From Mesostigma viride (taxonomy: Eukaryota; Streptophyta; Mesostigmatophyceae; Mesostigmatales; Mesostigmataceae): a DNA stretch of 64,000 nt. This document shows, one piece after another, positions 28,902-63,411 of the stretch. The notes under the pieces are model-generated. The model worked only from the letters and a program-made list of their open reading frames with translations. It did no database searches and was not told the DNA's origin. Position 1 is the stretch's first letter, and the number at the start of each line of letters is the position of its first letter. The DNA lies in NCBI GenBank assembly GCA_009746045.1, contig RPFO01000246.1, forward strand, positions 2,477,911 through 2,541,910, read 5' to 3'. The translations under genes and the position numbers were made by a program.

Positions 28902-28965
28902 GGGTGGTCCCACGCGGAATGGGGTAGATTTTTGCAAGAAAAAAACGCTAATTTCAATCGTCCGA
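28902..28965 (+). repeat. Left terminal inverted repeat of the 34.5-kb element
   Basis: Starts GGGTGGTCCCACGCGG. It is followed inward by subterminal repeats of the type GCGCCGAAATT (28978, 29038), also hinted at on the right end as GCGCGAATTTGGCG in reverse. The 29000-29340 stretch inside it holds no gene I can support. Confidence 0.7.
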
Positions 28966-29349
28966 AAACCGGACATTGCGCCGAAATTCTTGCCGAAAAT
29001 TTGGCAGCCGAGCGAATTTTTCGCCCGACGGACTTTGCGCCGAAATTTTGTGTCTGCCGTGCTTCGAACTCAACCGACTCCTGCTGTTGCGTGCACTTTG
29101 TCCGATGCCTGCAGGCCACGCACGAATTTTGCGACCGAAATATGACGACTAGACAAGTTTATCGACGACCTACATCGATCTATTGCCACTTTTGAAGTCC
29201 TTGGCTTGCTAGCAGCTATTGATTATCAATGCCGGGAACAAAATTGCCGAAAGTTTTTATTGAATCAGTACATATATGTGCACATGTCCGTAATTTTATC
29301 ATTCGCAATTTTGACATTGTCGGAGTATTTGACAACTTAGGCATTGCGC

Positions 29350-29952
29350 CTAGAAAAAGGTGCCCCATCCGTCGATGTCAAAATCGCCGAAGGAGTACAC
29401 TCCCTGGTACTGGTCTCCCCTGTAGTTGGGAGGCTCGCCTGTATACATTTTGGTGTTCCACTTGGCCCCGCCGTTCTCCGCAGCAGCCAGGAACTCCTGC
29501 TGGGCCTCGGCCCTCAGGCGCATCATTGATACATTGGGAGAGCCCGGAATTTCCGTGCTCTCCACCACCACTCTCGCCTGATTGTCAGGCACGCATTGGT
29601 AAGCAGGGTTCAAATCTGAATCGGGTGGCACCAGATCGATCATGCCATTGCCGAACGCAATGACACCTGCACCCCACTGTGCAGAAGGTCCGAGCAACTC
29701 TACATCAATTCTGATGTTTGCAGCGTGCTCATTTTTGTCGACCATCACATAGGTATGCTGAGAACCGAAAATATTGCTCTGCTCCATTTGTGACAGTGTT
29801 AAATTTCGGCAAGGTTGGCTGCTTGCAATCGACAGGAAATTGGTGACCCCGACAGCCAGACGCGCAAGGGTTATAACTGCAGGTAGAACCCAAAATTTGT
29901 CGATAAGGAGTAATGGAAGGGCACGACCACCAGTCACTAGTATTCGCTTCAC
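29350..29952 (-). CDS. Unknown protein near the left end of the large element
   Basis: A 200-codon open frame with a hydrophobic N-terminal stretch (PLLLIDKFWVLPAVITLARLAV type) and a soluble, Asn/Pro/Gly-rich remainder ending DFDIDGWGTFF. The N-terminal part may be intron or upstream exon sequence read through; the frame after about residue 55 (NLTLSQMEQSNIF onward) looks most protein-like. It stops 450 bp from the left terminal repeat. I do not recognise the family. It could be an accessory gene of the large element or a captured exon. Confidence 0.4.
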   Translation of the reverse strand: MKRILVTGGRALPLLLIDKFWVLPAVITLARLAVGVTNFLSIASSQPCRNLTLSQMEQSNIFGSQHTYVMVDKNEHAANIRIDVELLGPSAQWGAGVIAFGNGMIDLVPPDSDLNPAYQCVPDNQARVVVESTEIPGSPNVSMMRLRAEAQQEFLAAAENGGAKWNTKMYTGEPPNYRGDQYQGVYSFGDFDIDGWGTFF

Positions 29953-30108
29953 CGGACACCTTTTTCAGCTTCCGGATAAAATTCAGCAAGAGCAGCGGCG
30001 ATTAGATACTAAATATTGCGTTATTGGTTCGTACCGTACCCAGACAAAAATTGTACTAGTGACGCAATTGTACTAGGCGGAATGACAACTGCGCCCGGCA
30101 AATAAGTA

Positions 30109-30321
30109 TTTATTGCTCCAACCCCACACCTAACTTGTTCCGGAGCTGTTCGAAGCGAAGAGCAATGGGAGGGATCGGACCCGAGCCAGATTTGAGTGCG
30201 GAACATGATGGCTGGCCTACCTCACTCCGAACATTAAGGTGGACCCGGGTTCGAATCCTGTCAGTGCTATTCGCTTCGAACAGTTCCGGAACGATTTTTT
30301 TTGTGGGGGTGGAGCAATAAA
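30109..30321. mobile_element. 213-bp MITE with 54-bp arms
   Basis: Arms beginning TTTATTGCTCCAACCCC at the left and ending GGGGGTGGAGCAATAAA at the right pair with each other through TTCGAAGCGAA / TTCGCTTCGAA. The ends lie next to TTTA/TAAA, so a TA target is possible. The core contains GGGTTCGAATCC (about 30246-30257), an exact match to the Pol III B box as found in tRNA genes, but the surrounding bases do not fold as a cloverleaf. The stretch 30322-30600 to its right is AT-rich and shows nothing further. Confidence 0.7.
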
Positions 30322-30612
30322 TTCTCGACATGCAGAAACAAATGTCGAATAGATTGTGCAAAAAAATATCGAAATCCTTATCATTATTTAAATATACAGC
30401 ATAAAATTATGTTGCAGTAAAAAATAACTGTTAATTGAAGGCCGCAAAAAATTATCAACTACCCTTAAACTTGACCTCAGAAAGATCTCGAAAAATATAT
30501 ACAATATATGCGGCCACCTTTTTACACCCTACTGAAGCCCCACTCTAAAGATATAATACAAGCCGAAACTAGGGCGTCGTCTACCCGCAGCGAGACCCCA
30601 ATTTCTTGTTTA

Positions 30613-31355
30613 AGTCGGTGCCGGCCCCTCCGGGGCTTCATCCTTGATCACCAGCGCAGTAAGCCACTTGTCGAGCTCCTTGCTCATCCTGATGTCGGCA
30701 CACATTCCGTCGCTGCGCACGCGTGCTTCTAGACGGAGAGCCGGAGCGACGCAGAGATAGCAATTCACAAGCTCGGGCTGGCGTGACGGTGGCCAATCCT
30801 CAACGTTGAGCGTGAAATGCAGGGGGTCATGCTTATCCCGCTTCCAAATCCGAACGGGAAGAATGCCGTTCCCGGCGAGGAACAGCTCCTTCTCCCGTCC
30901 GTTCCGGCCCTCGACCCACCTCTCGAAGTTCTCGTCTAACACGATCGGCCCGGCTTCGCTTACAACCTCAGCCAACCAGAACGGGTGGATGGGATCGTGA
31001 TCCGTGTCCTTGTCCGATGGAACTGCCACATAGTCGTGGAGTCTCATCTGCCGGCCCATCGCCTCCCGCTTGTCCTTCAGCTGCTCCCCCGCGTCACCAT
31101 GCGAACCGGAGGGTTGGGCTGGCTCGGTGGCAGCAAACGGACAGTTTTCATCGAGCTTCCTGCATCATTGAACTCGATGATAAACGACCACTCGCTTAGA
31201 CATCCCTCAAACCGCCCAGCCAAACAGGGCGGACAGTAGCAGGAATAGCGCCTAATCATCAAAAGGCCAGGGTCGGACTTGTCCAGTCGCCACCAATGCG
31301 CCTTCTTGATGCCAGGCACCTCCTCCACCTCCGCGCGTCGGCCGGACTCGACGTC
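30613..31355 (-). CDS. DDE-family gene, exon 3 (C terminus)
   Basis: The exon starts after an acceptor ...GATGACAG (minus strand) and continues in phase from exon 2 (...LLPP / DVESGRRAEVEEVPG). It carries IKKAHWWRL and a Cys-containing segment RRYSCYCPPCLAGRFEGC, a C-terminal Cys cluster that follows the catalytic domain in this protein family. A one-base shift near 31160 moves the reading into the frame ending at 30610-30613 (DYVAVPSDKDTDHDPIHPFWLAEVV). The exon lies 8.9 kb from exon 2 because a transposon (31626-40022) sits in the intron. Confidence 0.7.
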
Positions 31356-31426
31356 CTGTCATCAAATAGTTAGGGCAAAAAGAATACCGTTCAAGTTAGC
31401 AAAATTGACCAAAAATCAATAAAACA

Positions 31427-31625
31427 GGGTATAGCTGCAGAGAGACCCCTTACAAAAAAAAAAATAACGACAAGACATCAAGTGATCAAAATTCGACACA
31501 GGGTATAGCTGCAGAGAGACCCCATTCGAATCATAATAACAACGTACGACAAGATATTAAGTGATCGAAATTCGACACAGGGTATAGCTGCAGAGAGACC
31601 CCATTCGAATCATAATAACAACGTA
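31427..31625. repeat. Tandem 78-bp intron repeats with palindrome variant
   Basis: Units read ...CGACACAGGGTATAGCTGCAG... with GAGAGACCCC, then CATAATAACAACGTACGAC. Palindrome copies start at 31427, 31501 and 31580; a further unit continues at 40024-40080 on the other side of the 8.4-kb insertion. They lie in the intron between exons 2 and 3 of the DDE-family gene. Confidence 0.8.
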
Positions 31626-32399
31626 CCCTGCCAGCCGTTAAGAATGTACTCCAGCACAAGTACATTTTGAGTTTTTCCAAGTTTCTTGTTTTTTGCTTGT
31701 TTCAAGTTCAGTTTTGCATAAAAAGTGTCCCCATAGCCCCTGGATCTCATCTGGAGGTAGTTGAACTAGTATATGCTACAATATACTAGGTTGTACTATT
31801 TTCTACTACATTTATACTATAATGTACTAAATTGAACTACATATGAACTAAATGTAACTGTGATTGATGCCCCTGTAACGTCTCCCAATGCTCAATAACA
31901 GGTCTGGCCACCATTGGTGACCTCCTAGAGCCATTCACAGCTGCATTTCGTGGATCACCGCACAAAAAAAAAAAGTTTTACTTAGCCTTATCAACATGGG
32001 AATGAGGGCTTTGGTGTGCAAACATGCATGTGTGCTAAAAATTGGACATTCTGACACTGCGCGAGAGTCTGGTAATACTTAAGCACTTCAGGTCATGATC
32101 GAAGTATAGAATGAACTGATGCAAGCAATCAAGCATTATGCAAGGAATGGAATGCTGCAATGAATTTTAGCAGTAATACTTGCAACTAGGGAACACACGA
32201 TAAAGTCACGAATCTGACATGCATTGTGCCGTCATGGCACATGCATGAACATGTACACGAACAGAGGATCACGCGGACGCCCACGTGCACGCGCATGGCA
32301 ATCCCCATGCCCCCCCCCCCCCACACACACACAAGCCCCAACTCCAAACATTGCACCAATGACCCACCCACCCAAACCCAACCCCAGCCCCCCTGACCC

Positions 32400-33690
32400 C
32401 CCAACGCCCATGCACACGCCCATGCCCCGCCCCCGCCCCCGCCCGCCCCCGCCCCCCCGCCCCCGCCCGCCCCGCCCCCGCCCCCGCCCCGCCCCCGCCC
32501 CCGCCCCCCCCCGCCGCCCCCGCCCCCGCCCCCGCCCATGCCCATGCCCCTGCCCCCGCACCCGCCCATTCTCACCCACGCCCACGCCCACGCCCACGCC
32601 CACGCCCACGCCCACGCCCATGCCCACGCCCACGCCCACGCCCACGCCCACGCCCACGCCCACGCCCACGCCCACGCCCACGCCCACGCCCACGCCCACG
32701 CCCACGCCCACGCCCACGCCCACGCCCACGCCCACGCCCACGCCCACGCCCACCCTAGCCTCACCCCTACTCCAAGCCACAATTATACCCAAAGCCACAG
32801 CCAGAAGTAGAGCGCAGCTGCAACAATAGCAGACGTAGCTGAGACACACACCTACCCACGCCAACGCCCACGCCCACGCTCACGCCCACGCCCACGCCCA
32901 CGCCCACGCCCACGCCCACGCCCACGCCCACGCCCACGCCCACGCCCACGCCCATGCCCACGCCCACGCCCACGCCACGCCCACGCCCACGCCCACGCCC
33001 ACGCCCACGCCCACGCCCACGCCCACGCCCACGCCCACGCCCACGCCCACGCCCACGCCCACGCCCACGCTCACGCCCACGCCCACGCCCACTCCACGCC
33101 CACTCCCACGCCCACGCCCACGCGCACGCGCACGCCCACGCCCACGCCCACGCCCACGCCCATGCCCACGCCCACGCCCACGCCCACGCCCACGCCCACG
33201 CCCACGCCCACGCCCACGCCCACGCCCACGCCCACGCCCACGCCCACGCCCACGCCCACGCCCACGCCCACGCCCACGCCCACGCCCACGCCCACGCCCA
33301 CGCCCACGCCCACGCCCACGCCCACGCCCACGCCCACACCCACACCCACGCCCACGCCACGCCCACGCCCACGCCCACGCCCACACCCACGCCCACGCCC
33401 ACGCCCACACCCACACCCACGCCCACGCCCACGCCCACGCCCACGCCCACGCCCACGCCCACGCCCACGCCCACGCCCACGCCCACTCCCACGCCTACGC
33501 CCACGCCCACGCCCACGCCCACGCCCACGCCCATGCCAACGCCCACGCCCACGCCCACGCCCACGCCCACGCCCACGCCCACACCCACGCCCACGCCCAC
33601 GCCCACGCCCACGCCCACGCCCGCGCCCATGCCCACGCTCACGCCCACGCCCACGCCCACGCCCGCGCCTGCGCCCACCCTAGCCTCACC
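32400..33690. repeat. GC-rich hexamer microsatellite, mainly (CCCACG)n
   Basis: Starts as CCCCGC-type repeats (32420-32540), continues as CCCACG hexamers to 32755, and after 115 bases of unique sequence again from 32865 to 33690 with CACA and ATG variants. The flanks of the two arrays (CACCCTAGCCTCACCCCTACTCCAAGCC with minor changes) recur at 32751 and 33674, showing that a larger unit was duplicated. The long Gly/Val, Ala/Trp, Pro/Thr and His/Ala frames here are by-products of the repeat. Confidence 0.95.
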
Positions 33691-33947
33691 CCTACTCCAA
33701 GCCACAAATGCACCGTAAGCCACAGCCAGAAGTACAGCACAGCAGCGACAATTGCAGACTTAGCCCAGACACACACCTACCCACGTCAATGCCCCTGCCC
33801 AGAGACTCGCGGCCTCATCCCACCCCCCTGCACGAACAGTTCCCAAACAAAAGAAAAGGCAAACAAAAGGAACAAGAGTAGCAAGCTGCATTGCGAGCAC
33901 ATATGCCAGTTCTGGTGCACATGCCAGGCCGAAAGCAACTCATGATT

Positions 33948-34112
33948 GCCCCTGCCCCTGCCCCTGCCCCTACCCCTGCCCCTGCCCCTGCCCCTGCCCC
34001 TGCCCCTGCCCCTGCCCCTGCCCCTGCCCCTGCCCCTGCCCCTGCCCCTGCCCCTGCCCCTGCCCCTGCCCCTGCCCCTGCCCCTGCCCCTGCCCCTGCT
34101 CCTGCCCCTGCC
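33948..34112. repeat. (CCCCTG)n hexamer microsatellite
   Basis: About 27 near-perfect copies, followed by an ATAATAATAAGAAG-type AT-rich repeat to 34205. 34205-35300 holds no gene I can support; 34615-34685 has a short CGCAAA/GGCAAA repeat. Confidence 0.95.
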
Positions 34113-35308
34113 ATCACCATTCTAACCACCACACATTACGAAAAGCAAGAAGAAATTATAATAATAATAAGAAGAAATTATAAGAAGAAGAAATAATAAT
34201 AATAAACAAGCACAAAGTTGACTGCACATGCGACTGTACCAGTTAGGCACGTAGCAAATTTTAGCTGCAGCTTCAATTTCAACTTCATTGCAATTGCAAG
34301 TGTGACTGCATGTGTAATTGCACTACCAATGCCTAATGCCCACTGCATGTGCCCAGTGCGAATGCAATTCAAAAGCAACATGCAATCGAAATTACAGCTG
34401 AAGCCGGCTATTAACAAAGATATTTAAAGCAGTTGTTAACTACAGAGACCCAATGAAAATGCAAATGCAATGAAAAAGCAACAGAAGTTGAAGCCACTGC
34501 CACTCTACCTGCCGACAGTAACACCACCGCCAGCACCCACTCATATCCCAACGACAAGGAAATAGAATTGCCCAAAGCCAGACATACATTGGGACGCATA
34601 AGCAAACGGCAACGCAAGCGCACATGCAAATGTATACGCAAAGGCAAAGGCAAAGGCAAACGCAAACGCAAACGCAAACGCAAGCTTGTCATGTACCTAC
34701 GCTTAACTGCAAACGCAAACTGTGCACGAAGCAAAAAGATTGGATGGCCAAGATCATGGCAAATACGAGGGCCGAAAACAATCCAACTTCATCTAAATGT
34801 CCGAAATCCTCACGACGTTTCGATGCGCGCTTGAATGTCGAAGGCCTGCGCCGATTATCGATCATAAGTCGAATGTGTAATTGTCGGCTTATGAGAACTG
34901 CTTTGCGACAGTATCACGTCAGGCCGTTCCTGTGCAGCCATTTTCCCTGTGCAGCGGGTGGACAACGTTCACTTTCCGCATTATTCATGGCTATCGAAGT
35001 TAATTCTTACCGACCCCGGCTGCCATGGCCACTGGCCACGCATATCAAGTTCAGGTATTCCCGACCTGTAGCGCAGCAGATTTCTGTCGGAAGGCATCCT
35101 AAGCATCGTGATAAAAGAAATCCGAACAGTAGACATTCATGCTGCATCTAAGGACATTATGGCATTTGTATATACTGCAAGTACATGTATCGACATTGCC
35201 GTGATTGCTAACCCCGACTCACCATGAACAGGAACTTTCCCTCTGCCTCCATGAAATGTACTTCGTGAAATGTACTGTAATACATATGATGTACTACGAT
35301 GATAATCA

Positions 35309-35923
35309 TCCCAGCAAAGCCATAGCACACCTTCCGTTTCGACCGCCATGTCGGCCACTAGTCCGGATAGCTCAATGTGCACCTGACCTTGACACTAATC
35401 GCACAAACAGCCACAATTTTGCAAGCAAGAAGACATGGCTACCTCGGCATTTCATGAAATGTACTTCGTGAAATGCATTTCGTGAAATGTACTAAGGAAC
35501 GTGATTGGCCGGCGTTCGCTCGCCAAATCTCGCAAAATGTACTAAGGCACGTGATTGGTCCCGCAAAATGTACTAAGGAACGTGATTGGCCGGCGAAGAT
35601 TCTGTTTGCTGCAATTAAAATTCCCTACAGAATCTTCGCCGGCCAATCACGTTCCTTAGTACATTTTGCGGGACCAATCACGTGCCTTAGTACATTTTGC
35701 GAGATTTGGCGAGCGAACGCCGGCCAATCACGTTCCTTAGTACATTTCACGAAATGCATTTCACGAAGTACATTTCATGAAATGCCGAGGTAGCCATGTC
35801 TTCTTGCTTGCAAAATTGTGGCTGTTTGTGCGATTAGTGTCAAGGTCAGGTGCACATTGAGCTATCCGGACTAGTGGCCGACATGGCGGTCGAAACGGAA
35901 GGTGTGCTATGGCTTTGCTGGGA
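35309..35923. repeat. Inverted repeat with 297-bp arms and 21-bp loop
   Basis: Left arm 35309-35605, right arm 35627-35923, seemingly identical by eye when one is reversed. Each arm carries repeated AAATGTACTAAGGAACGTG-type motifs that resemble the subterminal AAAATGTACTTCG of the enclosing transposon. Transcribed, it would form a long double-stranded RNA. Confidence 0.9.
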
Positions 35924-36356
35924 CATAATCGTGGCTATCTGCTTCCTGGCTTTCGCTATCATGGTGATGGGACACCATGGGAAGCGCAAGTTCGCAGCCA
36001 TAGTGCTAAGCGGCAGCACCCATGCCGGCAGCCTAGTGACCGACGAGACGTTCGACTGTAAGTGCGGCCACGAGTGCATGAAGCCCATTAGAATATCACA
36101 TCTCCAGGCATTGCGAAGCGCCTGGTTTTCGCCCGGGCGGAAGCAAGAGGACAGGAAGGCGGCGATAAAGCAGCAGCTGCACCAGGGGGGGTACGACGCC
36201 ATAACCACGATGTCGTCATCTACTCGTCACAAGTTCGTTCATGGCGCTGGTTTTCGGTTCGTTCTCGACGGGGGAGTCAAGGATATGAACATAGGGTTTG
36301 TGACCCCTTTTCACTTTCGCGTTTCACTTTCGAGGCGGCCTTCAGGCACTGCCTGA
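35850..36356 (+). CDS. Unknown ORF with a Cys motif, partly in the inverted repeat
   Basis: The 168-codon frame has one hydrophobic segment (LWLCWDIIVAICFLAFAIMVM) and a short Cys cluster TFDCKCGHEC followed by RKQEDRKAAIKQQL. The first 25 codons lie in the right arm of the long inverted repeat. The Cys part recalls the N-terminal region of the DDE-family proteins, so this may be a decayed related transposase; that is a guess. It could also be non-coding. Confidence 0.3.
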   Translation: MHIELSGLVADMAVETEGVLWLCWDIIVAICFLAFAIMVMGHHGKRKFAAIVLSGSTHAGSLVTDETFDCKCGHECMKPIRISHLQALRSAWFSPGRKQEDRKAAIKQQLHQGGYDAITTMSSSTRHKFVHGAGFRFVLDGGVKDMNIGFVTPFHFRVSLSRRPSGTA

Positions 36357-36828
36357 AAATTAGCAACCACGTTTGGAACTCTTCGGACCACCTGTGAAAC
36401 TAATCACATTTGATGATGTGCTGGCGGGCCTGGGCATCGCATTTGAGCATTACTTCGAGCAGGGCTCAACAAGCTCGATTCGCCAACTCAACCCGAAGAA
36501 GCCCTAAGCTGCGGTAAGACATATATTTGTGTGGATGGCTCTTGATATCATGCTGAATTTCTAGTCTTCTCTAGGTGGACAGTTCATGTGCAGCCATACA
36601 GGTCATCCATGTGTGTTTTAACCATGTTGCATGTGCCACAGATATTATGAGCAGTATTTACTAAGTGTGCTGGAGTCGTTGTTGCATGCTTGTTGTATTT
36701 CACAGTTCACGCCTGCATGAACGCATCGTTGATACTAATGATTATTCATATTGCATGACTGTTCTATTGGGGACGCCGCGCTTGATGTCACAACGTGGCC
36801 GAAAGGGTGCATCCACCGCTGACGGCCG

Positions 36829-38544
36829 GTGGGTGATATCGATGGACGCATTTCCGAAGAAGCCAGCCGCGGGCCACACCCATGGCGCGGGCGGGGCGCG
36901 GGCGGGGGCGGGGGCGGGGGAGAAGGCGCGGGTGCGGGCGCGGGCGCCACCCAAGACGCGGGCGCGGGCGCGGGCCCAGGCGGGGGCGGGGGCGGGGGCG
37001 CAGGCGCCGGCGCGGGTGCGGGCGCGGGCGCCACCCAAGGCGCGCGCGCGGGCGCGGGCGGGGGTGGGGGCGCAGGCGCCGGCGCGGGTGCGGGCGCGGG
37101 CGCCACCGCCGACTTGGATGATGAGCCAGCAACCGAAGCCGAGAGGGAGAGGCACCGCTCTTCGAAGGTGTTCGATCTCGAAGTGTTTTGGGGCCCGGAT
37201 ATGACCGTGTATGTCCGCTGGCGCCTAGCCGCATCGGAGACGTTGGTAAATGCACCGGTGAACAAGTGGCAGCCCACAGGGCCTAATGGCGAGGCTTGTG
37301 ACGGGGTCACGCCCATTGGGTACACCCCGCAGGGAGATCCTGTCTATGGGTGCCTCCTCATAGAGCGTGGCAAGGCCCCCAAAGGAAGTCCTGGTCTAGT
37401 GCCGCTTTTTGAATGGGACGAGGGCGGTGCCAGGAGATGTACCTGCGCTAGCCTTCACAGCCTTTTTCCTGACATCGTCGCCGCTGAGAAGCAGCAGTTG
37501 CTGGACGGATGGATTGAGCAGGTGCCAAAGTCCGTGGAGGATGTGCGTGCCAACAACGAGAATCTGTTCGACATCATGGAGCAAAAGCTCAAAGAGAAGC
37601 GTGAACTGCAAGCGAACAAGGCGGTACCCTTACCGCTGCGATCTGCAGGCGACCAGTCGGTTGCGCGGGCAACACGAGCACTGAGGCTGCCCATAAAACA
37701 AGTAATCTCACACGTCGCTTGCCCTGCCCGCGAGATTCAAGCGCAGATCAACCGCGCATGTGCGCCCGCTGCGCGAGGGAGCACATCAACGGCAACGCCC
37801 GCTTTGCGCACACTGATTTCCGGCAGGCACACCTTCAAGGTGAATGGAAGCCTCATACGACGCAGCGACCTACTCGTTGTTAAGCGGCCAGCCGTCACCT
37901 GCGGGCAGGGAATGCCGTGGGCACCACACATGCTGGTGAAGGTCCTTGATCTGGAAGGCGATCGCACGGAGCGTGACAGCATTGTCGCCTCTCCTTACTA
38001 CGCACCGTCGTGGACGGGCCAGTTTTCTAGAGTGACATTAGGTGGCGGCAGCGCAGGGATGACGGTCCCCATTTCTGATGTACACCTGCAGCACTGGACA
38101 GTGGGCGGTACGGCAGAGGTGCACCAGCCTGAGCTGATCAGTACCGGCAAACTGTCAGCTGCCACGGTGGCGGCGTTGAAAGAGCACCCGCAGATTGACT
38201 TTGAGCATTACAAGACTGCCACCGCCGCCAGGGCAGCAGCAAAGGATGACTGCAATGCCTACTTTGCCGAGCATGGAGCACGTGCGCTTATCGGGATGCG
38301 CCTGTGTGCCCTGTTTCCGGGGATAGCGAGGAAGAGGGAGCGCTTCCATGGCTGGGTCACTAAGGTTCAGGAAAGGGGAGGTCACCTGCTCATCAAGGCG
38401 ATGTGGGCTGATGGGCAGTATGAGGACTATCATGCCCTGGCGGAGGTGACGCAGTTCGTGTGCGGCTGCCCACACCCAGTCGAGGCATTTGGCCGCGCTC
38501 GCTTCTTTCCACAGGAGCTAGGCTGGCACCGTGAACGCAGGTGA
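36829..38544 (+). CDS. 571-codon ORF of the 8.4-kb transposon, Gly/Ala-rich N terminus
   Basis: After a Gly/Ala low-complexity tract (to about residue 100), the protein is ordinary in composition: VFDLEVFWGPDMTVYVRWRL, a Cys pair region near residue 210, a coiled-coil-like stretch (MEQKLKEKRELQ) and a C-terminal 60 residues (GMRLCALFPGIARKRERFHG...MWADGQYEDYHALAEV) that look like a Tudor/chromo-barrel fold. The start is uncertain: an ATG at 36785 in another frame (SQRGRKGAS, AT-hook-like) may be the true start, with a shift hidden in the GC-rich tract. It is the only substantial gene of this element. No family recognised. Confidence 0.55.
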   Translation: MGDIDGRISEEASRGPHPWRGRGAGGGGGGGEGAGAGAGATQDAGAGAGPGGGGGGGAGAGAGAGAGATQGARAGAGGGGGAGAGAGAGAGATADLDDEPATEAERERHRSSKVFDLEVFWGPDMTVYVRWRLAASETLVNAPVNKWQPTGPNGEACDGVTPIGYTPQGDPVYGCLLIERGKAPKGSPGLVPLFEWDEGGARRCTCASLHSLFPDIVAAEKQQLLDGWIEQVPKSVEDVRANNENLFDIMEQKLKEKRELQANKAVPLPLRSAGDQSVARATRALRLPIKQVISHVACPAREIQAQINRACAPAARGSTSTATPALRTLISGRHTFKVNGSLIRRSDLLVVKRPAVTCGQGMPWAPHMLVKVLDLEGDRTERDSIVASPYYAPSWTGQFSRVTLGGGSAGMTVPISDVHLQHWTVGGTAEVHQPELISTGKLSAATVAALKEHPQIDFEHYKTATAARAAAKDDCNAYFAEHGARALIGMRLCALFPGIARKRERFHGWVTKVQERGGHLLIKAMWADGQYEDYHALAEVTQFVCGCPHPVEAFGRARFFPQELGWHRERR

Positions 38545-38589
38545 TGGCACCCACATAGACGATGCCGTCCCTGCTGTGCACAGTGACAG

Positions 38590-38735
38590 TGAAGGCGGGG
38601 AGGAGGAGGAAGAGGGAGAGAAAGAGGGGGAGAAAGAGGGGGAGGAGGAGGGGAGGAGGAGGGAGAATGGGAGGGGGAGGGGGAGGAGGAAGAGGGAGAG
38701 GGAGAGGGAGAGGAGGATGCGGAATGGGAGCCGGG
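38590..38735. repeat. Purine-rich GAG/GGA repeat
   Basis: A strand-asymmetric run of GGAGGAG/GAGAGG downstream of the ORF. No separate gene. The following 38740-39140 is unique, non-coding sequence. Confidence 0.8.
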
Positions 38736-39139
38736 GATGACTGGTAGATGAGACGGTGCCATCTACCGGCGCATGGAATGAAGTGGTAGACAAGTTTACT
38801 CATGGTTGTCGGCAAGTAGAGCATGCACGCCTGGCCTAGCTGAATTTAAATCAACGAGTTGAGTTTGGAGAGGCTGCATTTTGCTTGGATGAAGAATGTG
38901 TTAGCATGGCCAAACTTTTATGGCTTGTAGCCAAATCCTCTTGGGGTATGTGCACAGTGTACTAGCGGTGTTGTGCAATTGCGAGGATTCCTGTCTTGTA
39001 GCGATGTGGCCTCTCACCCTGCAGCCTGGTAGATGTGATGGCATGCAGCCACCCATCATTGGTCATCCGATCTGGTGTGATTTGCATTTGCACACCTTGT
39101 ATTAAGGCCATGATATGATGATGTCTTGTTATTTTTGAT

Positions 39140-47345: not shown

Positions 47346-47350
47346 CGTAA

Positions 47351-53114: not shown

Positions 53115-53203
53115 GGGTCTCGCTGCAGCGAGACGCCAAAGTTTTGCATTAAACTAAATGTCCCTTTTAGAATCCACGAAAGGGTCTAGCTGCAGCGAGA
53201 CCC
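53115..53203. repeat. Two palindrome copies upstream of the plus-strand gene
   Basis: Start at 53115 (one base off perfect) and 53182. They precede the acceptor TTCTGCAG|ATG at 53280/53281, so they probably lie in a 5' intron or leader of the gene that follows. Confidence 0.8.
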
Positions 53204-53280
53204 TCCCCATCGTTTTTCTGCCGGCGATTCAGATTCTGAATGACATTTGTGAAACTTGCTTTTTTGATATTGTTCTGCAG

Positions 53281-54481
53281 ATGTCGTCCTCCTATTCCGA
53301 TTCTGTCAAGGCCACTCCCGTTTCACCCAAGATGACGGCGAACACCTCGCCGGACCGAACGGCAACGGAGGAGTTTCCTTCGTTGCAGTTCGGTCCCGTA
53401 AAAGATCTTGCGAGGTCCCCCCCCACCGAGTCCCCCTCGCCCTCCAAGTCCAACTTGCCCCCCAGCGAGTTGGACAGAATTATACCCCCCACCTCTCTCG
53501 CTGCTGCGTCTCGCGCTCCGTCCCGCTCTCCGCCCCGTAAGTCTCCATCGCCGCCCCCAAGTCGGCCGGAGCTACTGCGTCCCGCTCGCCGCCCCGCAAG
53601 TCCCCCAAGTCCCCCGCAACTGCGACCCGTTCGCCGAACCGCAAGTCCCCCTCTCCGCCCAAAGTTCCCCCCGCTACCGCGTCCCGCTCTCCTTCTCGCA
53701 AGTCCCCCTCGCCGTCAACCAAGAACCCCGCAACTGCGACCCGCTCGCCGTCCCGCTCTGCTTCCCCCAAGTCCCGCTCGCCGCCACCCAAGTCCCCCGC
53801 TGCTGCGTCCCGCTCGCCGTCCCCCAAGCATTCCAGTTCTAAGCGTAAGCCTGCGGCCGAGTGGGTAGAGGAAGACGACCGCACCAAAGAGCTCAGGAAG
53901 CTGAGGAAGTCTATCAGTGAGCTTGTTGAGGAGGACGAGCGCGATCAGACTAACGGGAGGCCTGAAGACCCGGAATCGCCGGTTCGGGAGTCGCGTCAGA
54001 AGCGGTTGTCCGATTTGTTAGCAATGGCCGCAAGCTTTGCTGACGAATACGCGGCTCTCGACAAGAAGGACAAGGAGAAGGAGAAGGCGGAGAGGGAGGC
54101 CATCGAGAAGGCGGAGAGGGAGAGGGTGGAGAGGGAGGAGAAGGAGAGGCTGGAGAAGGCGGAGAGGGAGGAGGAGGAGAGGGAGTACAAGGAGAAAAAG
54201 GCTGCCCAGGAGAAGGAGCACAGGATCCTGGTGGCGAAGCAGAAGGAGGAGGCGAAGAAGAAGACGGAGGCGGCAGCGAAGGGAATTCTTGCGGAGGAGG
54301 CCGCTCTTTTTTTGCAGATGCGACAGGAGAGGATGAAGGCGGAAGAGGCCGCGAGGAAGATGGAGGAGGAGGCTGCGAGGAAGGGGGAGGAGGCTGCGAA
54401 GGCAGTTGAGGGGGACTGGGGGAGAAGGACGAGAACGGGAGCCCACCCCTTCTTCACGAAGGATTTTCAGTCGATTATCAG
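53281..54481 (+). CDS. Plus-strand gene, exon 1: Ser/Pro/Arg repeats and coiled coil
   Basis: Begins ATG right after a TTCTGCAG acceptor. Residues 40-190 are repeats of the type SRSPPRKSPSP; then SKRKPAAEW, and a long charged helix (EKEKAEREAIEKAERERVE..., 54060-54400), very likely a coiled coil. A one-base shift in a C run near 53551-53556 changes frame from that of 53281 to that of 54006. Donor GTATGT at 54482. The phase to exon 2 does not close perfectly, so another small error may exist. Function unknown; composition recalls SR-type or scaffold proteins, which is not evidence of function. Confidence 0.55.
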
Positions 54482-54879
54482 GTATGTTTATTAATGTGAG
54501 ACGTACATTTTTCAGATGGCTTGAACGGCGTGTGTGTATCGTAGAAAGGGTGGGATTTTATGTCATACATTGATCGTAAGGGTCTAGCTGCGGAGAGACG
54601 TTGACCTAGGAGTTAAGGTTGTTGACGACGACGATGTGTGGCCTTTTTTTTACTCTTGTTGTCTGCAGCCCGACACGCTGGCCATTCTGAAACAGTACCT
54701 GGCTCAGGCTGAGTCTGAGTCTGGGGTGAGTCGTAAAGCCGAAAAGGTCTTGAGAGGCTTGATCCGCTTTCTTTCGGCCGAGATAGGGTTTGCAGAGAAG
54801 TCCGGTGTCGTCGCCAACCCGAGTGTCCTCCAGTTTCAGAACGTAATTTGGAAGAACGACCGCTGCGGCCAGCTTGCTT

Positions 54880-56182
54880 CCAGGTTGGTCTGTACGCCGC
54901 ACTTTTGCGATAAAATGCGGGATAAAGCATATTATGGGCCTCGACGTATTTTACGCGTATTTTACGTCTGACCACGCGGTTTGGACTTGGAATTTTTCGG
55001 GGGTACCAGCGGGCAGCGGGCACTGGCGCGGTGCCCAGGTTCTGGGCGCGGCGCGCTCACTGCACATTTGAGATTTTTACTACTAGAAGTAGATGCGTAC
55101 AGTTCTTTTCATAAAGCGCAAGCCTTGCAAAATGTTTGGCCGGTAGGAGACAGCTAGGACTAGGTACATAACGCATAAATAACAGTGTGCCAGCAAATGC
55201 CAGCTGTGCTACTGACGGTGTAATGCAATATAGCGACGACGAGGCCAGTGCGACTGTGCGACAGTGTGCAGCCATTTTCGATTTGCAGCCATGAAGAAGA
55301 AAGGGCCTGAATGGGATTTCGTTCTCGAGAAGAAAGAAGCAGTCACAGATGCTGTTAGTAACAAAACGCAGTTTGTGTCGAATAAGTTCTGCTCATTTTG
55401 CAACAAGAAGTTCTCATACGGGGCGGGGGCAATCAGCGTATTCCGAGTCCGTGCACACTTTGCCGGAATCGCAGGGGAAGGGATGTTACCCTGCGACAAA
55501 ATTCCACCGAATATCCGGAGCAGGTTTCTCAGGATGTATAACAACAAGTCGCAGCAGTCAGACGCCAAGAAGCAGCACAATTTGAACAGGGCAATGGCGG
55601 AGATGGGAGGGGCTGCGCCGGCTGACTTGTCGTCGGTTCCCAGCAAAGGCCAGCTGAGCATCACCAAATGGCTGGTTCCCGTCGACGAGAAAGGTGTCCA
55701 GCTGCTGGCTGCCGAATTTTTTATCGAGAACGGCATTGCCTTCAATGCGGCTGAGAGCGCCTCTTTCAAGCAGATGGTGGCCGGCATGATCCAGTACAAA
55801 GGAGGGCACGTCACCCCTCCTTCTCGGAAGTTGTGTCTTATGTCCTCTCATGCATTATATAGTGGATGGCTTTCCTTACAATCAATTAATTAATTGAATC
55901 CTTACTATTCCCGTTGCAGCATGCTCCCCCCTGCATTTAACAAATCATAATCAGATAGGATTGCAGGGCATAAATGGAAGATGTTAATAAATAAGCATAT
56001 ACACCAAATTTCAGTTGTAATAACTGCATGACCATCATCAAGGAGCGTGCTAATTGGGTGACTGACAATTGGACCACAAAAACTGTCGCGCATTTTACCA
56101 CCGCGTATTTTATACCCCCCACGTATAATACGCGTATTTTAAGTCCACGTATTATACCCCGCACACGTATTTTCCAACCTGG
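54880..56182 (+). mobile_element. hAT-family element, 1303 bp, 8-bp target duplication
   Basis: Ends are CCAGGTTGG and CCAACCTGG, flanked by GCTTGCTT on both sides (54872-54879, 56183-56190). Subterminal TACGCGTATTTTA motifs occur near both ends (54947-54962 and in inverted form 56125-56145). An 8-bp duplication with a BED-finger transposase fragment is diagnostic of hAT. Too short for a full transposase, so non-autonomous or deleted. 55894-56080 inside it is non-coding. Confidence 0.9.
55291..55893 (+). pseudogene. Truncated hAT transposase (BED zinc finger part)
   Basis: From ATG 55291 the frame gives KFCSFCNKKFSYGAGAISVF, then RVRAHFAG: a BED-type finger with C-x2-C and a His. Further on, FFIENGIAFNAAESASFKQMV and GHVTPPSRKL match the N-terminal part of hAT/DUF659-type transposases. 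The catalytic Asp residues and the C-terminal dimerisation domain are missing; the frame ends at 55893. It would not transpose on its own. Confidence 0.8.
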
Positions 56183-57144
56183 GCTTGCTTTGTTCGGAGC
56201 CACACTGCGAGCCATTCATGGGAAGAGGGTCGTTGGTGACGACATGTATGAGGTTTTGAAGATCGCGCAGTCGTGCATCCTTAATCTGAAGGAGGATATG
56301 TCGGACGTTACTTTCCCCGTCGTGCTTTAATATGGTCGACGCTCTTTGATGAGGTTGAAAAGTTCGAGGTCCACATTGGCTTCACATGCATCGAGGCTTC
56401 CTATATGGAAACCTTGAAAACCACTGCGTTGCATCAGCTCTTTAAACTCATGACTGGAGATATGAGAGCGGATTCGAGGGCTTCACTGTCGGAAGATGAA
56501 GTGTTTGATATTGTCAGGCAAGGATTTGTTGACACGTCCAACAGTGACTATATCGTAATTGTGCCGGGAAGAATGAATGACGTAGGAGGATTGGAGGAGC
56601 GCGCACATGAAGTGATCGCGCATTTGGACATGGCAAGAGACCACTTACTGCAATCTTTTGTTAAGTGGCGGACTGACTTTCTTGTCAGCCCGGACGCCAG
56701 CCTTTCGCGGGAAGCGGTCGCTTTCTTTTTGGATTGGGCTGGACAGGTGATCCAAAGTTTCCGGCACCGGGAGGACTTCCATGTTATTCAGACATATAAG
56801 CCATACCGGGAAGTCGTCCAGGAATGGTTGGATCAAATCTCGTTGGTTGATTGTCTCCAGAGTATCCGAACCAAGACAGACACGGAGTGGTCTGATTTAG
56901 AGGCGGGAGGCCATTGGCAGTCCCTCGAGTTGTTCTTCGAGGCGGAATTGAGGCGGCAACTGGAAAAGGAGAGAGCCCATCAAGTGCCGATATGGCCTTT
57001 GGGGAAGATTTTGAGGAGGTGGAAGTTCTACGTTTCGGTACGTTAACTTGCCGATATCGTTTATCGATTTGGGTTGTTTCCATTCCCTGAATAGGGCTCT
57101 ATATGCTGACCAACCTTCATGGTTTGTCCTGTCATATCATGCAG

Positions 57145-57407
57145 GGGGGCTCCATGCCAGGGGACGTATCGGAGGATTTACCTAATTTGTCAGACTTGGT
57201 TGATAAGGTGGGTGCTTGTCCGTCGAGTTTCCACGAGCATCTTACATGGGGTCTAGCTGCAGGTAGACCCTCACCCTTTTATTGAGACTGACATGTTCGG
57301 CTAATTTCAACGGTGCCCCCAACCAATCTGTTGTCTTTTTTCAGGGGGCGGCTGCGGCGATGGCTGTTGACAGTGCTGGTATTTGGTCTGGACTCGAGAT
57401 GGAAATG
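57145..57407 (+). CDS. Plus-strand gene, exons 3 and 4 (small)
   Basis: Exon 3 is 57145-57207 (GSMPGDVSEDLPNLSDLVDK), exon 4 is 57345-57407 (AAAAMAVDSAGIWSGLEMEM). Both are bounded by ...CAG acceptors and GTGGGT/GTAAGC donors. The intron between them (57208-57344) holds a palindrome at 57249. The intron before exon 3 (57038-57144) holds none. Confidence 0.6.
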
Positions 57408-57531
57408 GTAAGCATTAAACGATATCCGGATGTCTGCATTTCGCCTGAAGTTTTAGTGAGCGCATTATGCGAAATATACAAATATCGACTAATTTTGATT
57501 TCCAATGAGCTGTCGTATTCGGTGTTGACAG

Positions 57532-57660
57532 GCGGGGGGTTTGGCCTCAGCAGGCGCTGCCGGAGAGGAAGAAAACGCTGGAGGAGATGAGGATGGGGGG
57601 GATGAAAACGCTGGAGGAGATGAGGATGGGGGAGACGCTGAGGGAGAAGTGGCTGTGCAG
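57532..57660 (+). CDS. Plus-strand gene, exon 5: acidic repeat
   Basis: Encodes repeats of ENAGGDEDGGD. Acceptor GTTGACAG, donor GTACGT. The next intron (57661-57786) contains a degenerate palindrome at 57706. Confidence 0.6.
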
Positions 57661-57786
57661 GTACGTTCATCCGCCGCGAGTTCGTGTGATTTTTTTCGTG
57701 CTGAGGGGTATCTCCGCAGAGAGACGATGGTGCAACAATCGAACTGAGGTCAAGTCCCTTCTTGTTCGTTTTTTTTTGTCATGCAG

Positions 57787-58329
57787 GCGGGGGCTGTCGC
57801 TGGGGGTACTGCGGGGGGGAAGGCGGCGAAGCCTCCATTGACTGAGCATGAAAGGGAAAAGCTGGATTCCCGCAAGAAGGTTGCGAAGGATCATATTATT
57901 GCTGTTGGCCTGATCATGCTTAAGTCTCCGCCCGATGGCGTCGATTCGGAGGGACCTGCGGGGTCCGAGTTTCGCAAGTACCTGACACGACTTGAGGCGG
58001 AAGTCGATGCCGATTTCGATACGGAGGTGTTGGGTGACGCTACCTTTAAGAGTGAATTGGCATATGAATTCGCAAATCTGGTGAAGTCGAAAGCCACCAA
58101 GAATTTCAAGTGGCAGCCTAAGGAGTACTCAGAGGCAAAGGTTGACAAGATCGAGAAATTCATGAAGGCTGATTTTCGTCGTCGGGCCGCTGAGGGAAAA
58201 AGGGCGCTGAATGCGGTGGCAAAGGCCAACAGTAAGAAGAACGCGGAGGCGAAGGCGGCGGAGAAGGAGGCGAAGAAGGCGGAGAAGGAGAAGGCTAAGG
58301 AGGCCAAGAAGCAGCAGAAAACTGGACAG
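57787..58329 (+). CDS. Plus-strand gene, exon 6
   Basis: Encodes GAVAGGTAGGKAAKPPLTEHE, then a helical, Lys-rich stretch (EREKLDSRKKVAKDHIIAVGLIML) and an Ala/Glu/Lys coiled-coil tail (AEKEAKKAEKEKAKEAKKQ). Between them lies a more ordinary segment (FRKYLTRLEAEVDADFDTEV). Donor GTACGA at 58330; the following intron (58330-58518) carries a degenerate palindrome near 58352. Confidence 0.6.
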
Positions 58330-58518
58330 GTACGATTGTTGTGAAAATTTAGACCTCTCGCTGCGGGTAGACGCTGACCGGCTGCGGGACTTGGTGTTTA
58401 GTGTCAGTAAGGTACTATTCCAACAGAACTTTGTTCGTCCCTGAACAGGATGTCGTGGTCGGCCTAAAGATTACTGACTTGAGCAAATCCTGCGGTCCTT
58501 TTCGATTTTTTACTTCAG

Positions 58519-59685
58519 GATGACGGGGGGGACGAAGACGCCACGGTGGAGAAGAAGTTACCTGGTCATGACGCCGTGTTCGCGCTGGTGAAGGATATGC
58601 TCAAGTACTGCTCGAGTAGGCGGATGGCGGACGTCGATGACCTGCCAAACTGGCCCGAGTTCTCCCCCTTTCTTGAGCTGCTCCGGTCACTCAACAAGCT
58701 TTTTAAGGAGGGGGTGCTCACGAGCAGTGGGAACCCGGACACCGACCCTATCATTGAAAGCTGGAAGCCTTCGAAAAAGGTCGACTCGAACAAGGAGGTC
58801 AGGGACCAGAACATCCGGAAGGCCAATACTCTCAGGGAAACGCGTTGGATTCGGCCGGCCGATTTTAAGCAGACCGGATGTTTCAGTATGCGGATCCAGA
58901 CGGTCAACGCGCTTATTTTGCCAGAGGCTTTGAGGCAGCGGCGTTTAAACCTTGAAACCATTAAGGAGAACGGCCGCATTCTCCTCAATGCGCGGGACAA
59001 CGCCTTGCACTTCAAGGTTGTTGTCCCGGTCTGGCAGTTCCCTTTCCAGGCGCTTGCCGAATCTCAACCTGACCTGTTCGACAAGCAAATCTTGTGCATG
59101 CCGGATTTCGTCAAGTGGCTGAAGCATCACCACGGCGCCAAGATTGACGCGGAGGATGTGGGGTCCAGGTACTTCCGGCCCCTTTCGGATACTGAAGTCG
59201 ACGTGTGGCTTAACACGGAGTCCACCACCTCTTTCCTCGCGAGAGGACTTGAGTGGCGTACCTACGCCAGGGTGGACGAGGTGGAAGCAGTTTTGCCTCA
59301 GGAGATCGAGGGCAGTCGGCAAGTTTTCAACCTGCTGTGCAATACTGCGATGAAGTCCTACGATCCGAAATTTTTTGAGGAACGGGTACCGGTACCGTAT
59401 CTGGTTCTCCGGTACGCGGTGGTGGATGGGAACCACTACTTTAAGGGGTTAAAGTCGTTTCTCAGGGGGCCGGATGGCGGGTGGGGAGAGGTTCGGGCAA
59501 TGATGTGCGAGGGTGGGGCGGAGTCCAATTTCGCAAATACTCCTAAGGAGGCGGAGCACGCCTTCCAGGACCTGTTGCGGAAATTCCGTGGTGGTTACAT
59601 GGGTACGAACGTCATTCTTCTCAAGGGTGGCGACCTGCTCCCGTCGTGGAGTGAGCTGCGAAATCTACCTAAGGCAAAAGAAGAT
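58519..59685 (+). CDS. Plus-strand gene, exon 7: largest globular part
   Basis: The 389-codon exon has normal amino-acid composition and no low complexity. It includes FLELLRSLNKLFKEGVLT, IRKANTLRETRWIRPADFK, LHFKVVVPVWQFPFQALAE, RGLEWRTYARVDEVEAVLP and YLVLRYAVVDGNHYFKGLK. I do not recognise a family. Acceptor TACTTCAG, donor GTAAGC (59686). The next intron (59686-59940) has three palindromes, at 59706, 59776 and 59862. Confidence 0.65.
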
Positions 59686-59940
59686 GTAAGCTATCTATTT
59701 TGGCAGGGTCTAGCTGCGGGTAGACCCTCGGAATTTTCGTGGTTGTTTTTTGTGTGCGCTTCAAGTTTTTTGCGAGGGTCTCGCTGCAGCTAGACCCTCT
59801 CCTTTTTTTTGTTGGAATTTTCGTTGCGTATTGTCGGCCGTTTCTTTTTCGAATTTTGTTAGGGTCTATCCGCAGCTATACCCCTCGCCTTTTATGACTG
59901 AGTTTTGTCGTTGCTCGCTCGATGTTAATTGATGTCGCAG

Positions 59941-60948
59941 GCGGTGCTGACCGGCAAGCTGGAGAAGCTGTTCGACATCGCCAAGGGGGCGAATTCGGAG
60001 GACTTAGCCGTGGCGGATCGTACGCTGGGCCAGGCGTTGCTTGACGTGTGGAACTACAACAAGCTATATCTATACGGCAAAGTCACGCGTGGGAAGGGCC
60101 ACTATATTGCGGATGGCCACTACACCAATCTGCTCACGTACATCCTCCCGGCTATGCGGCAAGCGGGGGGAAGGGAAGGGAATGTGGAGCCGGCAGCGGT
60201 GGATGTACACGAGGAGGAAGCAGAAGGAAAGAAAAAGCCGGCCCACAGCATTGCTTCAGTGCATTCCGCTTACAGTCGCACGCTGGCCAACACGTTTCTC
60301 CGTCTGACACAGGAGCAGACTGATGATCCTGCCTCAACGAAACCCGCGCCTGAGGAGGTGATGATGCAAAGGTGCAAATTCGCCAATGCAGAGGGGGAGA
60401 AGAAAGGCCAGAAGGTCTCTTGGACTTCTTTCAGGAACTTGGCCAGCCTTCCTATGATGGACGCCGTGATCGATTGCATCATGAGCTGCCAGGTTGGACC
60501 GGAAAAGCTCACCAAGTTGGTGGAGATCGCCAAGGATGTGCTGGAGTGCCTGCGGCTGACCATTTGCGCCAGATTCAAGGAGGATGTGACGCTGGAAGCG
60601 CAATGCAAGGACGCAAATGGCAAGGAGTTTGTGGCGTCTCATATTTTCGAACTCGTCTTCAATCTCCATCCTCTCGCTCGGCCGGTCGGCAGGAAGGAGA
60701 TTGTGGCCAGATACCGGGAATTTTGGGATGTGGCCGTCATCATAACGAGGAACATCGCCTACCTTCTTAAAGCCAAAAAACACGCCGCACATCTGAGGAT
60801 TCCGAGAAAGGATCTCAGTAATGGCAAGATCGACTTTCAGGAGATTCTGCTAAAAGAGAGCGAGGACAAGACGGTGGGTTTGGCACTTTTGGCTCCGGAA
60901 GCGTTCAGGAAGTACGCTCCAAAAGTTGGATTACTCGAAGGGGGGTGA
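59941..60948 (+). CDS. Plus-strand gene, exon 8
   Basis: Starts after GATGTCGCAG with AVLTGKLEKLFDIAKGANSED and continues through LGQALLDVWNYNKLYLYGKVT, SVHSAYSRTLANTFLRLTQ and IFELVFNLHPLARPVGRKEIV. It ends at a stop just after a run of six G (60940-60945); one base of shift there leads into Lys/Glu-rich sequence (KGLEKGKGKGKETEAKKEEE) and on to the next exon, so the stop may be an artefact. Function unknown. Confidence 0.6.
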   Translation, partial: AVLTGKLEKLFDIAKGANSEDLAVADRTLGQALLDVWNYNKLYLYGKVTRGKGHYIADGHYTNLLTYILPAMRQAGGREGNVEPAAVDVHEEEAEGKKKPAHSIASVHSAYSRTLANTFLRLTQEQTDDPASTKPAPEEVMMQRCKFANAEGEKKGQKVSWTSFRNLASLPMMDAVIDCIMSCQVGPEKLTKLVEIAKDVLECLRLTICARFKEDVTLEAQCKDANGKEFVASHIFELVFNLHPLARPVGRKEIVARYREFWDVAVIITRNIAYLLKAKKHAAHLRIPRKDLSNGKIDFQEILLKESEDKTVGLALLAPEAFRKYAPKVGLLEGG

Positions 60949-61065
60949 AGGAGGCGGCGATGAAGGGGCCGGTGAAGGGGCTGGAGAAGGGGAAGGGGAA
61001 GGGGAAGGAGACGGAGGCGAAGAAGGAGGAGGAGGCGAAGGAGGAGGAGGAGTGGGACGTGAAGT

Positions 61066-62459
61066 ATGAGTGGCAGAGTGTGGACTGGGGCCGTCGCCGG
61101 GTCTGGTTTTGCTGTCAGGCTAGACGGTGATGATGATGACAAGTCGCTCGTCAAGCAGGTGGCAGGCGAGGTTGCCTCAGCTTCAGCCCGCCCCTTTCCC
61201 TTGGGCAGGTCCCTTCCGTGCCTGAGCCTGCTGAACTTGGCGAACATTTGGGGTGATAAGTGGAGTAACTTTCAGAGAGGGTGGTGGGCGTTCGGTCCTT
61301 GCCCGACAGCTTCGGACATTCCCCAACCGGGCGGGATGTACGATAATGTGCTGAAGGCTTGCGCCCACGACTTTTTCTCCAGGTTCGAACCGATGGTGAT
61401 CGTGTTTGGTACCGAGACGGAGATTAAGGGGTTTCAAGAGATAGTGGAAAGGATCGGGAAAGGGAGTGAATTGTGGGAGCGGCTTGAACAGGGGGAAGGT
61501 GATGGGGGGCCTAGGCTCGGAAGGGCGAAGAAGCGAAAAGCTTCCCACGAAGCTGGGGGATCGTCCGCCGTGGTGGAGAGGGATGACCAACAGTTGTTGG
61601 AGGGAGGGGATGGAGGGGATGGAGGTCCGGCAGGAGGGTCTAACCGCGGAGAGACCCCCGTCGAGGTCAGAACGCAGCAGGCCGAACAGATGACGGGGCC
61701 TGAAGGTGATTCGGATCCGCCTGCGGCGAAGAAGCCCGCTTCTCAAGTGACTCGACGGGCAGTCGTGTCACTTGTTGAGGATGATGGAGGTGGGCCTTCC
61801 AAGCCTGCCGCGTCGCAGCCCGTTTTTCAGGTTCCGAAGAAGCAGCTTCGGGTTCCCCCGGCGACTCTGCCCACCCCGGCGCCTCTGCCCAGTTCTCAGG
61901 TACCGAAGAAGCAGCTTCGGGTTCCCCCGCCGACTCTGGCCATTTCTCAGGTACCGAAGAAGCAGCTTCGTAAGCCAGTTGTGGCAGTGGCTGATTCGGA
62001 CGACGATGCTGAGGAGGAGGAGGAGGAGGAGGACGACGATGCTGAGGAGGAGGAGGGGGAGGAGGAGGAGGAGGAGGAGGAGGAGCAGCACGTTGCTACC
62101 AAGAAATCCGCCAAGGGTGGGAAGGCTGCGGAGCACGTTGCTTCCAAGAAATCGGCCAAGGTGGGGAAGCCTCCCAAGCCTGCCCTGCCTCAGAAACGGC
62201 GTCGAAAAGCAGTTGTGCTTTCAGATTCGGACGATGAGGAGGAGAAGGAGGAGGAGGATGGCGGCGGAGAGGAGGAGGACGGGGGAAAGGAGCGCGTTGC
62301 TTCCAAGAAGTTACCCAAGACCGCGAAGACTGCCAAGGTTGCCGAGCCCGCCAAACCCGCCCCGGCGCCTGCCCCCCACCCCCAGACGGGGTCTACCTGC
62401 GAGCAGAGGTCGAAGGAAAAGGCCAAAAAGGGTAAGAAAAAATCTGCGAGTGAATTCTG
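61066..62459 (+). CDS. Plus-strand gene, exon 9: acidic/basic tail region with repeats
   Basis: The first part (NLANIWGDKWSNFQRGWWAF... FEPMVIVFGTETEIKGFQ) is globular. From residue 160 it is disordered: RAKKRKASHE, three copies of QVPKKQLRVPP-type repeats (61830-61975), long Asp/Glu runs (62000-62085) and KKSAKGGKA motifs with several basic patches that could be nuclear localisation signals. A palindrome copy lies within the coding sequence at 61636-61657. The start given is the first ATG in frame; the true 5' border is not clear. Donor GTATGT at 62460. Confidence 0.55.
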
Positions 62460-62554
62460 GTATGTAGAGTGTTTTGATTTTTCACGGTTGGCAGTCCGAT
62501 TTCTACTAACTCGATTTTAGTCATGCGTTGATGGCATGATCGGTTTGCTCGCAG

Positions 62555-63117
62555 GTAATGAGGATGTGGAGCAGTTACTTCGCTTGGCTAATGTGGCGGT
62601 GGGCTTCGGACCAGCGGCTGTACATGCTGACACTTCCGGACGGGAGGAGCCTAAGGGGGCGGAAGACAGTCAGGCGGGCGATGAGGATGATGACAAGCCC
62701 ACGTTGGAAATGAGACTTATGGACGGGGAAATGGGGTTCGGAGCACCAGAGGCCTTTTGGTGTGATGGGTGGACTTTAGCCATTATGCAAGCAGGGAACA
62801 AGGATACGGCTACGCCAATGTATGCCAAGCTAGAAGACGTCATGCTTTATGGGCAGGTGTCTGGATACGACACCAAGTGGAGGGACGTCGCATTTAAGTT
62901 TTTCGCTGAGGGGGAGAAGGGAGGGAAGTTGAAGAACAAGTTGTGGTGGATGCCGCTGGACTACGCGATGAAGGTGGTAAAGCTGACGGATGGCAAGAGC
63001 TGGAAGGATGTGGAAGTCTGGGCGCCTGCAAAGGAGATCGATAAGAAGAGGAGGAACTCGAAAACGGAACAGCAGATCGCGGAAGCGAAATTACGGAAGA
63101 GGCCCTCGAAAGTGTGA
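62555..63117 (+). CDS. Plus-strand gene, last exon
   Basis: Follows GCTCGCAG and encodes NEDVEQLLRLANVAVGFGPA, then an acidic stretch and a compact segment (MGFGAPEAFWCDGWTLAIMQ, YAKLEDVMLYGQVSGYDTKW) ending RKRPSKV at 63117. The stop is 294 bp from the end of the 34.5-kb element. No known domain. Confidence 0.6.
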
Positions 63118-63339
63118 GGGAAAGTTAGCACTTGGACATGCGCTGGCAATGCTCGTCCTATGGTTAATACAAAGGTTAGGATGATGTCGAGTCTCTCCAC
63201 GTAAAATTTACATGAATTACTAACTTTCAAGCCTCTCGATGTGGAATGTACGCTCAAATTGACATGAATTAAGCATTATGACACCAAATTAGCTCGAAAA
63301 TACGCGATCGGACGCCAAATTCGCGCGAAAAAAAGATAT

Positions 63340-63411
63340 CGGACGATTGAAACTAGCGTTTTTTTCTTGCAAAATGCGCCAAAAATGACCCCATTCCGCG
63401 TGGGACCACCC
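63340..63411 (-). repeat. Right terminal inverted repeat of the 34.5-kb element
   Basis: The reverse complement of the left end, with eight extra bases between the two conserved blocks (GGCGCATT region). It is followed outside by TGGC. The 222 bases between the last exon (63117) and this repeat contain no ORF of note. Confidence 0.7.

Follow-up and report, generated by a model that had tools for sequence, protein, structure and literature searches.

DNA transposition is described, in an extract of a review, as falling significantly with cargo above about 6 kb (PMC6431247). The same extract reports En/Spm (CACTA) families of 16–20 kb with four to five open reading frames (ORFs) in Chondrus crispus, and Polintons/Mavericks of 15–25 kb with inverted ends and a DDE integrase (PMC6431247). 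Sola elements, in the excerpted description of a second source, have a DDD transposase, 4-bp target duplications, lengths that are mostly 2–9 kb and in some cases above 15 kb, and ends that vary from 11 to 1,124 bp (PMC10741241), while Sola2-Fanzor elements are given AT-rich duplications and 12–21-bp ends in part of a third (PMC3627910). Here we analyse a stretch of 64,000 nucleotides from Mesostigma viride (contig RPFO01000246.1, positions 2,477,911 to 2,541,910), called the window below, and conclude with a probability of roughly 0.9 that its positions 28902–63411 represent a single copy of a giant DNA transposon, 19.4 kb long in its clean form. The element has inverted ends of about 70 bp starting GGGTGGTCCCACGCGG and many nearly identical copies.

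The ends of the window copy could be read directly. The left terminal inverted repeat (TIR; 28902–28965, plus strand) begins with GGGTGGTCCCACGCGGAATGGGGT, whose reverse complement forms the right end at 63411 (right repeat 63339–63411, minus strand). The two ends are identical over their 24 terminal bases and share, further inward, a block of 35 bases with one mismatch, TTTTGCAAGAAAAAAACGCTA(A/G)TTTCAATCGTCCGA; in a BLAST comparison 64 nucleotides of one aligned with 73 of the other at 82%. Immediately outside each end stands TGGC (28898–28901 and 63412–63415). An earlier note on this DNA had placed the inverted ends at 28902–28965 and 63340–63411 with flanking TGGC, and both the direct reading and the copies found throughout the genome bear this out. 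The terminal 22-mer occurs once per orientation in the window, and a search for subterminal repeats gave nothing clear besides the inverted ends. The similarity of the ends is not a matter of chance, since a repeat present at many unrelated places stops exactly there.

Genome searches were run against the 440-Mb assembly of 2,243 contigs, and the candidates among the matches listed are not all verified copies. With the left 74 bases as query, the best 40 of 474 first-look candidates all matched at 100% over the full length, with one further partial match, and with the right 100 bases the best 40 of 468 were likewise all at 100%. At 20 left-end loci (L001–L020) the sequence is common from GGGTGG inward and divergent outward, one flank being common to L010 and L016. 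When the left and right lists of 40 were matched by orientation, which gives a lower bound, at least 19 of the 40 left ends were paired with a correctly oriented right end at a distance of 16.1–58.4 kb (median 23.9 kb). The C557 locus contains another right end, which is part of an adjacent copy and is not included here. Exact 4-bp duplications flank 15 of the 19 pairs and vary in sequence (CCTA, CGCC, AGCT, TTTT, AAGC, CGCT, TGTT twice, AACC, TCCG, CGAA, GGAT, TCCT, GCCT and GCCA). They represent 14 independent loci, since C323 and C224a share a site; these two copies (C323:668-20202 and C224:2489380-2505487) have the same flanks and differ in length (19.5 vs 16.1 kb), and are perhaps two haplotypes.

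Empty target sites were sought by joining both flanks of a copy with a single copy of the duplication. For C407, whose target is itself a repeat, the best 40 of 616 candidates all crossed the junction (position 150) at 99%, covering query positions 93–296 in 39 of the 40 scored places and 95–296 in the other. With C887b, the alignment of the joined flanks to a long interspersed nuclear element (LINE) of the window, near 28394, continues across the junction, where it has a gap of 2 bases (83.8% over 1,082 columns). Joining the flanks of C644 restores an open LINE frame, and joining those of C887a restores a 30-bp minisatellite. No match to the joined flanks of C407 or C887c was found within the window itself. 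Paired ends, flanking 4-bp duplications and empty sites had been named in the earlier note as the evidence to look for, and all were found, the empty sites at the targets of other copies. The element combines three features of a TIR DNA transposon: inverted repeats at its exact boundaries, target duplications of constant length at varied sites, and empty target sites. A defined unit has entered varied sites many times and recently, with duplication of 4 bp. The clean copy, described below, matches 29 other fetched loci at 99.3–100% over 2.6–4.1 kb, and five of these (L055, L057, L058, L064 and L069) show no change over 3.2–4.1 kb.

The clean copy (C745:4002-23432; 19,431 bp, flanked by TTTT) has both ends, and both genes are open in the models. 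It aligns to the window in four blocks, 28902–31626, 40023–47703, 53090–54877 and 56184–63411, and the rest of the 34.5-kb window copy consists of three later insertions that together make up about 15 kb. The earlier note had taken the whole 34.5 kb as a candidate giant transposon; that it is a mobile element stands, with the element proper reduced to 19.4 kb and the remainder assigned to nested insertions.

Genes were predicted with a small Viterbi model trained on six open stretches of the element itself, and two clearly false upstream exons per gene were removed from its output. Two predicted genes diverge about a 30-bp tandem repeat array in the centre of the element (44480–47340), which is also present in the clean copy. 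Minisatellites like this array occur in host DNA (in the flanks of L002, L003 and L038), and some copies of the element have inserted into such host minisatellites. Gene A, on the minus strand, is modelled with at least four exons (core 5298-3872, 3716-2970, 2455-1751 and 856-449) and about 1,090 amino acids, its 5' end not being fixed. In the window the predicted exons are a cysteine-rich exon 1 (41173–42599, true 5' end not fixed), exon 2 with the putative catalytic core and the motifs GDWAENY, CSDNC and HGKGEVDG (40271–41017), exon 3 (30652–31355) and the last exon (29350–29757). The core motifs may resemble those of an animal protein family. Gene B is the second, many-exon gene reading away from the DDE-like gene that the earlier note had described. 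Its predicted exons lie on the plus strand: exon 1 (53281–54481), exon 2 (54588–57037), which is split by nested insertion 3, and exons 3–12 (57345–63117, with the stop codon at 63117). The first exon was extended upstream by hand, within the open frame, to an ATG at core 10627, and the edited model has 12 exons, about 2,310 residues and a single terminal stop. Exon 1 falls into two frames in the window copy, as opposed to one open stretch of 444 amino acids in the clean copy. Since gene B has both an exon insertion and a frame break, autonomy has probably been lost in the window copy. Short palindromes like GGGTCTCGCTGCAGCGAGACCC number 16 in the clean copy, of which 14 do not fall in predicted exons, or 15 when the ATG is taken as the start of gene B. 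Clustering close to the 5' end of each gene, they lie at core positions 5453-5636, 10086-10528, 13269, 15726-15882 and others, and similar motifs occur in the host flanks of L002 and L014.

Homologues of the DDE-like gene, which the earlier note expected to find within other copies, are abundant. The core exon of gene A was scored at 114 places out of 995 candidates genome-wide, with 28 at 100% and 101 of the 114 at 97% protein identity or more; many matches show a stop somewhere in the query stretch, which takes in intron sequence as well. Five places at 89% protein identity might have formed a diverged subfamily, and this was rejected, as the one checked, C323, is 99.7% identical in DNA over 4,158 columns and owes its low protein identity to a frame change in intron sequence. 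A degenerate pattern of the HGKG..DG motif was found at 129 genome sites and at none for the reversed control, and all but one of the sites among the matches listed show one sequence. The pattern match L097 gave no convincing relative. One of the sites with this sequence (L098, L099), when read, shows a related domain (pairwise comparison, 39% identity across 257 residues, E=4e-52) in which the acidic positions D72, D157, E198 and D200 of alignment A1 are kept. A second high-copy family with a related putative transposase domain is thus present (L098, L099 and the 129 pattern sites), and the acidic residues conserved in the two families point to a DDD/E triad in gene A. That the second family is open at 39% identity suggests constraint on this domain of gene A.

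From these sequence features we infer that the element moves by cut-and-paste. The product of gene A, a putative DDD/E transposase, would bind the element ends, cut the element out with three acidic residues catalysing, and join it to the target DNA at positions staggered by 4 bases. A possible role for the product of gene B is that of an accessory protein that binds the ends, assembles the complex or counteracts silencing, though this is a guess.

Several results weigh against the reading of the locus as a giant transposon with its own transposase. The gene models are computed and hand-edited predictions. One of the 19 pairs (C224c) has a 5-bp duplication, TGCCA, and three (C662, C382 and C100) have none; the right flank of C382 is the same as that of C887c, so that C382 may be a chimeric copy. 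Gene A has no Pfam, NCBIfam or PDB sequence match above threshold, with nothing in Pfam at E up to 1 for the gene or at E up to 10 for the core exon, and weak PDB matches were judged to reflect chance or composition. Gene B, for which the Pfam search covered 1,708 residues from the model and the rest from window exons, gave only weak matches, which fall short of the curated cut-offs and lie in low-complexity stretches, and these were judged in the same way. A single-sequence structure model of the gene A core exon was unusable (mean predicted local distance difference test score, pLDDT, 34). Between the window and the clean copy, 24 nonsynonymous and six synonymous changed codons were counted in gene B, and four and one in gene A, which gives no sign of constraint, though the comparison says little about intact copies because gene B of the window is broken. 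The DDE-family gene of the earlier note is to be understood through acidic motifs conserved in two families and not through a match to a known transposase family; the profile search that was to place the protein in a superfamily returned no Pfam match. As gene A matches no known family, the term transposase rests here on anatomy and motifs.

The lack of a family match also lends something to the view that genes A and B are cargo and that a transposase from outside the element, perhaps one of another family, recognises the ends, and other TIR elements with 4-bp duplications, such as nested insertion 1, have indeed been amplified in this genome. We consider this unlikely, since the domain and its acidic residues are kept in a second high-copy family and gene A stands together with these ends in both the clean and the window copies. 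A Polinton-like element, viral in character and self-replicating, would agree with a size of about 20 kb and with the large proteins. It is less probable still, as searches of the predicted proteins, Pfam included, found neither a polymerase nor a capsid nor a retroviral-type integrase family, and five scans of viral contigs confirmed no relative. One scan of prokaryote contigs found none.

The remaining two explanations concern the repeats themselves, and both have a negligible chance of being correct. LINE sequence adjoins both ends of the window copy, as it would if the inverted repeat were a common leader or promoter of two LINEs. However, only two of the 20 left-end loci (L004 and L011) have flanks like the window LINEs at the similarity cut-off used, so the LINEs beside the window copy are not part of the element, and the 4-bp duplications and empty sites refute a leader. 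The earlier note had argued against a shared LINE leader, and rightly: the repeat is not upstream of most LINEs. Copies might also have arisen by segmental or assembly duplication, and some small contigs do repeat a site on a large contig (C323/C224a, and the right flank of C382/C887c), but the 14 loci differ in their flanks and 4-bp duplications, which contradicts this origin for most pairs, and empty sites exist.

Besides the transposon itself, the window holds other mobile DNA. Nested insertion 1 (31627–40022; 8.4 kb) is a TIR element flanked by GTAC within an intron of gene A. Its ends, CCCTRCCAGCCRTTAAGAATGTACTCCAGCAC, match at 93.5% over 31 bp, the left being one terminal C short, and the best 40 of 244 candidates for its left 74 bp were all at 100%, which indicates a high copy number. 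It contains a perfect 297-bp inverted repeat (35309–35923) and an ORF (36823–38544) that belongs to no known family and shows no similarity to the one gene A exon it was compared with; a link between this insertion and the second transposase family was also discarded, as no co-location was seen among the matches listed, compared by eye. Nested insertion 2 (47704–53086, plus strand) is an element with a Pfam tyrosine-recombinase domain (E=1e-6) and 300-bp direct repeats that are identical to each other. Its reverse transcriptase was not recognised by Pfam, and we take the element to be DIRS-like. Nested insertion 3 (54878–56178), within exon 2 of gene B, is hAT-like by eye only and has no Pfam match. 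Retroelements lie within positions 1–28900; one stretch, 15745–17589, has domains of a reverse transcriptase and of RNase H, and others are Gypsy- or copia-like by eye.

An element of 19.4 kb with copies of 40–58 kb has multiplied recently, some copies being identical over 3–4 kb. It offers a natural system for studying the movement of very large cut-and-paste elements and the part that a large second protein plays in it, and describing a transposase domain that Pfam does not match could aid the annotation of other genomes. We raise only tentatively, and regard as doubtful, the idea that it represents a new superfamily, namely an autonomous unit of about 19 kb with two element-encoded proteins, an undescribed class of DDD/E transposase and a partner of 2,300 amino acids, that reaches high copy number despite its size, with at least two families carrying the domain amplified here.

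Among known systems, Starships are fungal and have a tyrosine recombinase, CACTA elements have CACTA-type ends and 2–3-bp duplications, Polintons make 6-bp duplications, and MuDR and En/Spm are two-gene elements that encode a transposase and a second gene. The element resembles MuDR and En/Spm in its second gene, and differs from them in that they are much smaller and have other duplication lengths and recognised transposase families. No hAT, MULE, CACTA, piggyBac, PIF/Harbinger, Tc1/mariner, P, Merlin, KDZ or Ginger transposase or integrase domain of Pfam was found in gene A at E up to 1, or in its core exon at E up to 10. As far as the partial descriptions go, the likeness to Starships is that of giant eukaryotic transposons, that to Polintons/Mavericks lies in size and inverted ends, and that to the Chondrus crispus En/Spm (CACTA) families in similar size and several ORFs, although gene A has no CACTA transposase match and CACTA-type ends do not fit. 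Sola2-Fanzor elements, again from an excerpt, differ in their AT-rich targets and 12–21-bp ends, compared with varied targets and ends of about 70 bp here. Sola had been suggested in the earlier note, and the suggestion fits by duplication length, 4 bp at 15 of the 19 pairs. Compared by description only, Sola shares 4-bp duplications, variable ends and sizes above 15 kb with this element, though most Sola elements are 2–9 kb and the one described here is 19.4 kb. The acidic triad suggested for gene A and the 4-bp duplications, at this level of description, are compatible with Sola.

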